Shown here: positions 26,768 through 32,650 of the stretch, one piece after another
Position numbering within the stretch: the stretch's first letter is position 1
Layout: each line of letters starts with the position of its first letter
NCBI GenBank assembly: GCA_003560095.1
Contig: PWJI01000049.1
Location: forward strand, 1-32,650
DNA from: Candidatus Nealsoniibacteriota bacterium
GTDB lineage: Bacteria > Patescibacteriota > Minisyncoccia > Minisyncoccales > PWPS01
DNA length: 32,650 bases
Direction: 5' to 3'
The notes under the pieces: model-generated
Seen by the model: the letters and a program-made list of their open reading frames with translations, nothing else
Told to the model about the DNA's origin: nothing
Databases searched by the model: none
Translations under genes and position numbers: made by a program

Positions 26768-26827
26768 GTCGGAGGTTCAACCTCCGAAAATGCTCCCCCA
26801 ACAATCGGAGGTTCAACCTCCGATTGT
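26768..26827. repeat. Pair of extragenic palindromes TCGGAGGTTCAACCTCCGA
   Basis: 26768-26786; second copy with 12-bp stem (26799-26827); tandem CCGATTGTTAT x2 at 26819-26840. Confidence 0.85.
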
Positions 26828-28667: not shown

Positions 28668-28697
28668 ATAAAAGGGCAAATTACTGCCCCAAAATAC

Positions 28698-28733: not shown

Positions 28734-30203
28734 TTATTTATGATTTATTGCTTCTTTAATATGAGATTCTCTTATGCTTATTTTCCCTTCAAGATCGGCA
28801 ATAGTCCTTGCCACCTTTATTATTTTAAGATAATCATTTCTTGAAGATTCTTTTTTTAAGGTCTCTTTTGCTTTCTTTTCTAGAAAAGCATATTTTTTTA
28901 TTTCCTCTTTTTTCATTTCCGAGTTAGTAAATATATTTTCTTCCTTAAATCGTTTGCTTTGCATATCTCTGGCTCTTTTTACTCTTTCTTTCATTTCTTT
29001 TAGTATCTCTTCTACCTCCTCCTTTCTTAAAGAAGAAATTTCTTCTTTTTTTGAAAAATCAACACTCATGTCAGCTTTATCTGTAACAAAATCTTTAATT
29101 TTTTTGTTATAAGCTTTTAAGCTCTCTTTGGAACAAGTACAGTTTTCTTTCCTGCAAAGGCAAGAAGATACAGCAAAAACAAGCAAGTTTTTTGCCGGAT
29201 AAACAACTCTTTTTTTACCCGAAAAAACAATCACATAACCGTCTTTTGACGGCTTTCGTAATCTTCTAAGTAAAGACTTTGGAATCCTTTCCGCTCTATC
29301 TAAAAAAAGTATTCCTTTGTGTGAAAGAGTGACTTCTCCTGGTTTGGGGAAAACACCTCCCCCAATAAGTCTTTCAAGGGTAATGTCGGGCTTTACAAGC
29401 CGAAGAGGTCTTTTTTTAACTAACCCTTCCTCGGCATAGGTATTTCCAAAAACAGAATGTATTTTGGTAACCTCCAAAGACTCCCTGTGGTCTAATAAGG
29501 GAAACATACAAGAAAGCGCACGAGCGAAATTAATTTTTTTGGCTCTAATTCCGCTTAGTAAAACTACGTTATGATTTCCTCCCGCGGCAATTTCTACTGC
29601 TCTTTTAATGTTTTCTTTTTTGATTATTTCTTTAATGTCGGGATTATAAGAAAAGATTTCACTTTTCTCCTTATATTTCGCTCTTTTTATTTTCTTTTCT
29701 TTTTTTAAAAAAGATACTATTTCTTTTAGGTTTTCTGTAGGATAAATATTTATATCTTTTACCGCTGATGCCTCATAAGCGCAACTGGCGGGCAGAAATA
29801 TTCTTTTAAATCCTTTTTTTCTGGCAAAAAGAGTGAAAAGAAGAGAACCTTTAATGTGCTCTAAAGATCCATCAGAAGAAAGTTTTCCGCAAAAAATACT
29901 TTTTGGAGGTATATTAAATTTCTCCTTAAAAGAAAGAATACCAAGAGCAACGGGAAGATCGTATATAGATGCTTCTTTTGGCATATTTACCGGACTAATC
30001 TTAACTATAACCCTCAAAGAAGAAAAGTCTTTTTTAAGAGATTTTAGTGCCCCCCAAACTCTCTCTTCCAATTCTTTTTTTTCTTCCCCAAAAAGACCAA
30101 CAACCCTAAAAGAAGAAAAACTGCTTTCTTTTACGCTCATTTGAACCTCAACTTTTTTCCCCTCTAGTCCGAAAGCGCTTGCCGATGTTATTTTAATAAT
30201 CAT
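28734..30203 (-). CDS. ComM/YifB-type Mg-chelatase-like AAA+ protein with degenerate catalytic motifs
   Basis: N-terminal ChlI-like domain; IGGGVFPKPGEVTLSHKGILFLDRAERIPKSLLRRLRKP; CLCRKENCTCS; C-terminal IIKVARTIADLEGKISIRESHIKEAI. Confidence 0.85.
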   Translation of the reverse strand: MIIKITSASAFGLEGKKVEVQMSVKESSFSSFRVVGLFGEEKKELEERVWGALKSLKKDFSSLRVIVKISPVNMPKEASIYDLPVALGILSFKEKFNIPPKSIFCGKLSSDGSLEHIKGSLLFTLFARKKGFKRIFLPASCAYEASAVKDINIYPTENLKEIVSFLKKEKKIKRAKYKEKSEIFSYNPDIKEIIKKENIKRAVEIAAGGNHNVVLLSGIRAKKINFARALSCMFPLLDHRESLEVTKIHSVFGNTYAEEGLVKKRPLRLVKPDITLERLIGGGVFPKPGEVTLSHKGILFLDRAERIPKSLLRRLRKPSKDGYVIVFSGKKRVVYPAKNLLVFAVSSCLCRKENCTCSKESLKAYNKKIKDFVTDKADMSVDFSKKEEISSLRKEEVEEILKEMKERVKRARDMQSKRFKEENIFTNSEMKKEEIKKYAFLEKKAKETLKKESSRNDYLKIIKVARTIADLEGKISIRESHIKEAINHK

Positions 30204-30235: not shown

Positions 30236-30679
30236 CTACTCCCCTATTAACTGAAAATGAATTTCTCTTTCTCTTGCTCTGTCAAGCTCCACAAACATAA
30301 GACTTTGCCAGGTTCCAAGATTAATTTCTTTATTTTCAACATTCAAGGTTATACTGGAAGGCAAGTAAAGAGCCTTGCAGTGAGAGTGCCCGTTATCACA
30401 CTCCCCTTCGCACATATTAACTGTTCTTGTTGAAAAATCATCATGATTATAGTTTTCGTTTGCCGGAGCAAGACGCTCCAGATTTTTTTTCATATCTTTT
30501 AAGAGAAGTGGTTCGTTTTCGTTTAAAAAAACGGTTGCCGTTGTGTGCTTGGTTTGAATGTTTAAAAGTCCGTTTCTTATTTGTGATTGCTCTACAAAAT
30601 CCTTAACTTCTTTTGTGATGTCAATAAACTGTAAAGTTTCTTCACTTTTTATTTTTAATGTTTTGCTTTTACTTTTCAT
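30236..30679 (-). CDS. yjbQ: YjbQ/UPF0047 family protein
   Basis: TKHTTATVFLNENEPLLLKDM ... NGHSHCKALYLPSSITL ... LGTWQSLMFVELDRARER. Confidence 0.93.
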   Translation of the reverse strand: MKSKSKTLKIKSEETLQFIDITKEVKDFVEQSQIRNGLLNIQTKHTTATVFLNENEPLLLKDMKKNLERLAPANENYNHDDFSTRTVNMCEGECDNGHSHCKALYLPSSITLNVENKEINLGTWQSLMFVELDRAREREIHFQLIGE

Positions 30680-30805: not shown

Positions 30806-32650
30806 CTATCTGCACCCTTGTGTCGCCGATTCGCAACGCGTTCCCTCCTTGGGAGAAGAGCTTTCCGTTACACAATAAAAACCTGCTTCTTTTTCGTTTT
30901 CACCGCTTTCTTCTTGTTCTTTAAGCATTTCAATAGAGGCACAATAATTTTCATCTTCAAAATAAATATCCACTGCTTGCATCTCTTTGTACATTAAAAT
31001 TTCCGGCTCCTCTTTTGTGCCTTCATAACTTCCTTCATCCTCATAATTTAACGCAGCAAGATACTCAATTTCTTTAATTAATTGCAGTCTCTCCTCATTA
31101 GAGGCTATCTCAAAAATAAAATCAAGATAATAAGCCATAAACTCTTCAAACAATTCTTGCAGTGTTAAAAATTCTCCCGGTCTTTCAATGTTAAAGTCTT
31201 TATTAAAATCTTTAAATTCTAAGATTATATCAAAATCAACATCAATGCCGTCAAACATTTCTTCTCTTTTGTGTTCTTCGAGGTGCTCCCTGCTGGAAAA
31301 CTCTATTTTTAAAATATGGTCTTCGTTGGCCCATATATTAATATTGGAAAAAACATCCCCTTCCTGCGTTTCTTCTCTTGTCACTATAAGATCTTCTTTT
31401 ACTTGACTTATTTCTTGATAAAAAATTTCTGCCTCAGGCATGTTCTCAAGTTTTCCCAGTGCAAAAATAAGATTGTCTAAAAAAGGTTTTTCTTTGAGAG
31501 CAACTTTATATCTGGTTGCCGAAACTCCATCTACTTGATCATCTCTATACTCCAAAACCTCAATGGCATCTTCGGTAAACATTTCTCCCAGCGAAATTTC
31601 TTCATTAAATGGCGTTTCAAAAAAATCCATGTATTTATCAACATCCACACTTCCTCCTTCAAGTCCGTAAAAATCAAAAAAATCTTCTTCAAAGTCTTCG
31701 CTTATCAAAACATATCTTCCTGTAAAAATTTCTTTTAGATTGTCAATCATATTATTAAAATTATCTTCAAATAACTCTGCCTCCTCTTCTCCTGCTTGTT
31801 CTAGAAAATAAAAGAAATCTTCTTCTATGGAGGGAATACGAAAATCAATATCTTCAATTTTCAAATAAAAATCACCTTCTTTGTAAACCGAAGAAAGATT
31901 TGCTCCCAAAAACATTCCTCCCCAGTTATCTTCTAGCCTAAAATCAAAGCCACCGGAAGAAGAAAAAGAATTGTTTATTTTATCAATTTTTGTGTCTAAA
32001 TTTAAAGTATATTCAAATTCATCACCCCCCTCTTCTGCATTTAAAAAGATTTCATAACTCACATTAAAAGAATTAAGGTTTTCCATATTATTTACTTTCT
32101 CTACGAGCCTCTCCTCTAAAGATGCTGTTTCTCTAAAAAACAAAAACCAAGCAAAGAAAGAAACAAGTAAAAGGGCTAAAACCCCTCCTAGAATCAAAAA
32201 TTTTATATCAAGAGGAGATTTCTTTTTTTCTTCTCCAATGTTACCTTCCGGACTCATTATTGCTCCATCTACACTTATTTCTTTTCCTACGTCTTGCACT
32301 CGCTCCCCTTCTTTTTGAACACCTGTATCAAAGACGGGTTTTTCTTCTTCGGGTTCTTTTTGAGACTTATCAAAAGAAGAAAAAGCCTCATCTATTTGAG
32401 AGCCTTCCCATCCGGCAGACATAAGTGCGTTTTTGATATCTTCTTTAGAGTATCCGTTTGCCAAGTTTTCTTTTATATAACTTGATATTTCATTGGAAAC
32501 TTCACCATCTTGATTAGAAGAACTTTGACTTTCATTGGAGCTTCCCCCTTCTAAAGAAGAAAAAGCCTCATCTATTTGAGAGCTTTCCCATCCGGCAGAC
32601 ATAAGTGCGTTTTTGATATCTTCTTTAGAGTATCCGTTTGCCAAGTTTTC
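30806..32650 (-). CDS. Membrane protein with tandem GYSKEDIKNALMSAGW helical repeats, one TM and a large extracellular domain (5' end off window)
   Basis: Frame stays open to 32650, reading ENLANGYS upstream of the called start; TM FLILGGVLALLLVSFFAWFLFF. Confidence 0.85.
   Translation of the reverse strand, partial: ENLANGYSKEDIKNALMSAGWESSQIDEAFSSLEGGSSNESQSSSNQDGEVSNEISSYIKENLANGYSKEDIKNALMSAGWEGSQIDEAFSSFDKSQKEPEEEKPVFDTGVQKEGERVQDVGKEISVDGAIMSPEGNIGEEKKKSPLDIKFLILGGVLALLLVSFFAWFLFFRETASLEERLVEKVNNMENLNSFNVSYEIFLNAEEGGDEFEYTLNLDTKIDKINNSFSSSGGFDFRLEDNWGGMFLGANLSSVYKEGDFYLKIEDIDFRIPSIEEDFFYFLEQAGEEEAELFEDNFNNMIDNLKEIFTGRYVLISEDFEEDFFDFYGLEGGSVDVDKYMDFFETPFNEEISLGEMFTEDAIEVLEYRDDQVDGVSATRYKVALKEKPFLDNLIFALGKLENMPEAEIFYQEISQVKEDLIVTREETQEGDVFSNINIWANEDHILKIEFSSREHLEEHKREEMFDGIDVDFDIILEFKDFNKDFNIERPGEFLTLQELFEEFMAYYLDFIFEIASNEERLQLIKEIEYLAALNYEDEGSYEGTKEEPEILMYKEMQAVDIYFEDENYCASIEMLKEQEESGENEKEAGFYCVTESSSPKEGTRCESATQGCR
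32373..32650. repeat. 98-bp direct repeat, 180-bp period (32373-32470 and 32553-32650)
   Basis: One mismatch seen (C 32404 vs T 32584); second copy is truncated by the window end. Confidence 0.9.

Follow-up and report, generated by a model that had tools for sequence, protein, structure and literature searches.

The minus-strand gene at 28734-30203 of the window (the whole stretch of DNA that was analysed, 32,650 nucleotides) raises the question whether a ComM-family AAA+ protein can be kept after its ATP site has been lost, or whether it is a duplicate in decay. The initial annotation described it as a pseudo-ATPase retained for scaffolding, regulation or DNA binding.

An eroded, full-length ComM homologue

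The gene and its two terminal domains are:

28734..30203 (-): eroded ComM/YifB paralogue with an intact reading frame, 489 aa (ORF, Pfam and TIGR00368)
29649..30203 (-): Lon-protease-like N-terminal domain, residues 1-185 (Pfam ChlI, pLDDT and Foldseek)
28737..29003 (-): C-terminal domain, residues 401-489, the best conserved part (17/19 near-invariant residues kept)

The intact frame that had been claimed was confirmed: the ORF starts with ATG and runs through 489 codons with 0 internal stops. Pfam placed ChlI at residues 20-139, Mg_chelatase at 189-387 and Mg_chelatase_C at 402-488, all above cut-off and in ComM order. TIGR00368 (YifB) spans the whole protein with 318.1 bits, which is under the curated family cut-off of 362.4, and in a phmmer search residues 8-489 matched Legionella ComM (E 4e-53). 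The protein is a full-length ComM/YifB homologue in which the architecture of Lon-like, Mg_chelatase AAA+ and Mg_chelatase_C domains is present end to end. The domain order, the IGGGxxPKPGE element (IGGGVFPKPGE at residue 280) and the CxC...CxC cysteines, all said to be kept, were indeed found. Codon usage of the eroded copy is normal (0.695, compared to 0.647-0.738 in the neighbours and 0.50/0.55 out of frame). The protein contains 15.5% lysine, versus 7-10%, and has a pI of 9.8. The predicted structure was built from a three-sequence alignment and is confident for the Lon domain only, the AAA+ part being uninformative; the Lon domain forms a block with a pLDDT of mostly ~70-90, and Foldseek matched it to the ComM Lon domain 8rxs with a TM of 0.82.

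The gene is preceded by a co-directional gene and followed by a hairpin:

30236..30679 (-): upstream gene of the UPF0047/YjbQ family, 32-nt gap, possible operon partner (ORF and family match)
28673..28690 (-): terminator-like hairpin downstream of the eroded gene (pattern match only; 6 sites found where 2.5 are expected by chance in the region)

When the UPF0047 loci of five relatives were searched for UPF0047-comM adjacency, a shared insertion site or synteny, none was found. The UPF0047 gene itself is 66% identical to that of a genus g2 genome and 51-54% to those of its own genus, hinting at acquisition by transfer. Elsewhere in the window, a poorly coding stretch at 26769-26823 carries the palindrome TCGGAGGTTCAACCTCCGA twice, 36 bp apart, and at the contig end (32370-32650) a 101-nt direct repeat (98%) with a spacing of 180 nt lies inside ORF 30806-32644, giving repeated protein segments.

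The ATP site has lost most of its catalytic residues

Four sites were assigned by alignment:

29532..29555 (-): former Walker A, SGIRAKKI at residues 217-224, with substitutions of G, P, G, G and T and a retained Lys (8 or more nt substitutions over the 8 codons)
29277..29315 (-): former Walker B at residues 297-309, where the Asp persists and the catalytic Glu303 has become Arg
29133..29168 (-): zinc-finger-like CxC...CxC; 4 Cys kept, loop 5 residues shorter, sensor-1 Asn346 changed to Ser
28836..28838 (-): position equivalent to the Arg finger R463 of Legionella ComM, occupied by Asn456 and directly preceded by an Arg (residue role from PMC11612176)

The non-canonical Walker A reported near 29532-29555 corresponds to SGIRAKKI at residues 217-224, and GILFLDRAERI (residue 297), SSCLCR (346) and DFVTDKADM (371) are all present as quoted by the initial annotation. 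Its wording that every catalytic motif is eroded was slightly too strong: most are lost, but K223, D302 and the sensor-3 Arg R316 are retained. It had also placed the Arg finger in GPLLDRID. The change there is real, but the Arg of GPLLDRID is the sensing residue R381, which is Lys376 in the eroded copy (mapped on the cryo-EM structure, PMC11612176), whereas in the solved ComM structure the Arg finger is R463 (PMC11612176), here N456. E302 of PMC11612176 sits one column off its Glu in our alignment and was treated as the Walker B Glu.

Within the AAA+ core, 31 of the 75 near-invariant positions are lost, while the intact paralogue described below keeps 74/75. The lost positions include all P-loop Gly/Pro, Glu303, Asn346 and Arg376, and the P-loop Thr and Arg456 of the C-terminal domain are gone as well. 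A comparison with 94 other full-length ComMs showed no variation at the P-loop Gly, Pro and Lys or at the sensor-1 Asn, and the Walker B Glu is kept in all fetched ComM copies covering Walker B. Wherever a fetched copy spans the motifs, it shows the GxPGxGK[TS] pattern of the P-loop, Asp-Glu at Walker B and Asn at sensor 1. Since the ATPase motifs are invariant across the other ComMs compared, their loss here is not a matter of chance. No intact P-loop was found elsewhere in the eroded protein, and a misalignment with the P-loop at another position was ruled out by the nearly gap-free alignment at Walker A, in which the Lys is aligned and kept. The eroded copy lacks the intact Walker A, Walker B Glu, sensor 1 and Arg finger of ComM/YifB proteins, and has lost the catalytic residues, as expected of an AAA+ pseudo-ATPase.

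Because P-loop, catalytic Glu and Arg finger are missing, ATP-driven branch migration is not expected, and the protein would be unable to run an ATP-driven ring motor. A non-canonical yet active ATPase that relies on the Lys of Walker A and the Asp of Walker B, both retained, could appeal to the presence of K223, D302 and R316. However, the P-loop glycines, the Thr/Ser, the catalytic Glu, the sensor-1 Asn and the Arg finger are all gone, and disruption of Walker A abolishes DNA binding and helicase activity of ComM (PMC11612176, citing Nero et al. 2018), which leaves this explanation a negligible chance.

An intact ComM is encoded in the same assembly

The presence of a canonical ComM elsewhere in the genome, as a possible active partner, had been put forward as something to look for. 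Such a gene was found on contig C23 (G000:C23:2080-3585), with all motifs intact. Its surroundings presumably have the order dprA, yraN, comM, comF, with what we take to be type IV pilus genes a few genes further. The assembly comprises 768 kb in 55 contigs and is estimated to be 99.7% complete and 4.5% contaminated. The contigs C11, which carries the eroded copy, and C23 have a GC content of 34.0 and 34.6%, respectively, and tetranucleotide correlations of 0.93-0.98. Genes on C11, genes on C23 and rpoB have the same nearest genomes (G006, G003, G007 and G001), and rpoB occurs as a single copy whose parts lie on two contigs. As GC, tetranucleotides and nearest genomes agree and rpoB is single, both ComMs are taken as probably belonging to one organism, which would give the eroded copy an active-looking paralogue in its own genome.

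If C11 or C23 came from another species, the eroded copy might be the sole ComM of its true genome. The contamination estimate would allow for such a chimeric bin, and so would the close species G006 and G007, in which ComM and DprA are missing. Against it stand the similar composition of the contigs and the nearest genomes shared by the C11 and C23 genes and the single rpoB; bin contamination is not favoured, and we regard a chimera as very improbable.

Ring and DNA contacts have changed together with the ATP site

Substitutions in the eroded copy also affect residues outside catalysis. Two near-invariant contacts of the Lon ring are changed (E22 to Q and R117 to E), and so is R50 (to W), where conservation is lower. 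In the DNA loop, Ser has taken the place of the invariant Arg R328, and one pore lysine, K46, is now Glu. Of the near-invariant residues, 17/19 are kept in the C-terminal domain, compared to 26/40 for the Lon domain and 44/75 for the AAA+ core. Because the Lon contacts, R328 and K46 have changed, there is no clear sign of scaffolding in a normal ring or of DNA binding in the canonical way, and the loss of ring-contact and DNA-contact residues weakens a simple scaffold model. The changes in the Lon contacts, R328 and K46 are as compatible with general drift as with a specific new function.

These residues also bear on whether the eroded copy could form mixed rings with canonical ComM as a regulatory subunit, much as other AAA+ machines contain inactive subunits; it would supply a trans face (R316), its own ATP site in cis being dead. 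The loss of P-loop, Walker B Glu and sensor 1 next to a kept R316 and a conservative Lys at R381 is consistent with such a subunit, as are the Lon-domain fold retained in the predicted structure and the intact partner encoded in the same assembly. However, Asn stands in place of the Arg finger R463 and Q/E in place of the E22-R117 contact, both of which an interface partner would be expected to keep; moreover, the two ComM genes lie on different contigs. A mixed ring would therefore seem quite unlikely.

The eroded copy is a long branch within its own genus clade

A ComM match was obtained in 102 of the 147 genomes searched. The eroded copy was not found in 247 genomes of the order, where the best matches were canonical ComMs with 37-45% identity (41-45% to the ComMs of its genus). 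A scan of public genome contigs yielded two canonical ComMs only and no eroded orthologue, and no match to the eroded ComM was found in the viral contigs scanned. A conserved orthologue group, looked for in relatives, viral contigs and public genome contigs, was thereby rejected. The suggestion that related genomes might share the loss did not hold: none of the genomes searched in the genus, family and order carries the eroded gene, so the conservation across relatives looked for in an AAA+ pseudo-ATPase is absent among them.

In the trees, the eroded copy is nested, with a support of 99/100, in the clade formed by genus g1 and its neighbours, indicating descent from the ComM lineage of its own genus; the placement is supported at the level of this clade. 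Its branch is very long, with ~4 to 5 changes per column compared to a median near 0.2. A sister placement with its own paralogue was not rejected by the protein AU test (p-AU 0.11), yet by codon likelihood a recent duplication of the own ComM is 42 lnL worse.

Several side observations concern ComM in other genomes. In the family, dprA and comM go together; both are absent in G006, G007, G010, G012 and G013, where pilT-like genes remain, which suggests that the recombination step of transformation was lost jointly in some species. Two ComM copies per assembly, all with intact motifs, occur in G063 (L044/L045) and G052 (L046/L047), reflecting paralogy or mixed bins. The ComMs of G127 (L120) and G055 (L121) have intact ATPase motifs and lack the zinc-finger-like cysteines (NPSPSG and NPTPGG, respectively); some active-looking ComMs thus do without the four cysteines. 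In the relative G095, ~50 kb separate two parts of comM (G095:C3:1-2665 and 51293-53964; L049 and L050), the break lying directly ahead of the Walker A codons, presumably with a recombinase-like ORF at one junction. The arrangement resembles the insertion of an integrative element into comM, which is known for AbaR islands in Acinetobacter.

Selection acted on the gene while its ATP site was already dead

We analysed the constraint on the eroded copy with a purpose-written branch codon model. The omega of the eroded branch was 0.34 (F3x4) or 0.44 (F1x4), a rough value because this branch is long, against 0.06-0.07 in the background. An omega of 1 was rejected on the eroded branch (2dlnL 16.4 with F3x4 and 11.6 with F1x4), and also for every other attachment tried. 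Equality with the background was rejected as well (2dlnL 33); constraint on the eroded copy was about six times weaker than on ComM. The proposed dN/dS below 1 was borne out in this way, and as it derives from a single species it describes a historical constraint.

In neutral simulations run to 50% identity, 17-18 stops arose on average (minimum 9), and to 60% identity ~14 (minimum 6), whereas 0 are observed. All 5 indels of the eroded copy comprise whole codons and stay in frame. Outside the ATP site, genus-fixed positions were retained at 106/155 (68%) if conserved in the wider family and at 28/78 (36%) if not (p = 3e-6). As retention follows conservation in the wider family, the remaining constraint is of the ComM type. 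At the 95% level, a last stretch of neutral evolution can account for no more than ~0.15 substitutions per codon. For the 8 codons of the P-loop alone, 8 or more substitutions are required, and under the bounded neutral phase these have a P of ~4e-5; this value is indicative, since the sites were chosen as known catalytic but also known to have changed. The P-loop changes exceed any final neutral phase, and therefore the ATPase-dead state coexisted with selection. The eroded gene was kept as a protein while already ATPase-dead.

A fresh pseudogene is ruled out by the 0 stops, the in-frame indels, the omega and the bound on the neutral phase; neither frame disruption nor neutral evolution was found. 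The main rival is decay, in which a duplicate ComM that diverged under relaxed selection is by now useless and has not yet met a stop codon. This would account for the absence of the gene from relatives, the sixfold omega, the erosion of DNA and ring-assembly contacts together with the ATP site, and the strong Lys enrichment, which fits drift in an AT-rich genome. However, no stops or frameshifts are seen where 17 stops are expected, the P-loop changes do not fit into a neutral phase of at most ~0.15 substitutions per codon, and residue retention tracks family conservation. We consider decay unlikely. Selection has kept the protein in the one species known to carry it, the constraint measured being historical.

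A ComM paralogue that may act without ATP

What the sequences provide is an ATP site that is lost, a frame that is intact and partially constrained, and an intact paralogue in the assembly. We favour the explanation that the gene is probably a diverged ComM paralogue of the genus lineage that no longer binds or hydrolyses ATP, was kept by selection beside an intact ComM, and acts without ATP as a DNA- or partner-binding accessory. Its Lon-like N-terminal domain, its C-terminal domain and its highly basic make-up could support such an ATP-independent action, through which it might assist recombination by binding DNA or a partner. The likeliest target would be canonical ComM or its substrate, which could be modulated or sequestered. 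Of the role first proposed, retention and an ATP-dead state by sequence stand, while the specific function (scaffolding, regulation or DNA binding) is so far not supported. That the protein is an ATP-independent modulator of natural transformation, either a brake on canonical ComM or its DNA-holding partner, is a more speculative idea to which we give little probability. If true, it would be the first inactive-subunit partner for the ComM/RadA branch-migration motors. If the eroded copy works, an inactive-subunit regulator would be possible in DNA-uptake recombination, in a ~0.77 Mb genome with few spare genes. The eroded copy also offers a natural experiment to learn which surfaces of ComM are important in the absence of ATP.

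Comparison with known systems

Dead AAA+ paralogues are already known in several machines. For the ComM/YifB family, a limited search of open-access papers found no report of an ATPase-dead paralogue. The best reading is that the eroded copy would be a species-level ComM pseudo-ATPase, so far in one species only. With ComM/YifB itself (TIGR00368; Legionella ComM, PDB 8rxd) it shares the three-domain order, the length, the four cysteines and the IGGGxxPKPGE hairpin, but its ATP site, Arg finger, R328 and Lon-ring contacts are replaced and its score is below the family cut-off. Clamp-loader delta/delta' and degenerate Orc subunits are AAA+ proteins that have lost ATPase activity and are retained for assembly or DNA contact; they are ancient and lineage-wide, whereas the eroded ComM is seen in one species. 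In Mg-chelatase, BchD/ChlD is an AAA+ paralogue with degenerate ATP motifs and an active partner, BchI/ChlI; BchD carries integrin/VWA domains and forms a defined heteromeric complex. The eroded ComM belongs to the same broad AAA+ clade and likewise has degenerate ATP motifs beside an active-looking paralogue, but it has no integrin/VWA domain and its partner is putative.
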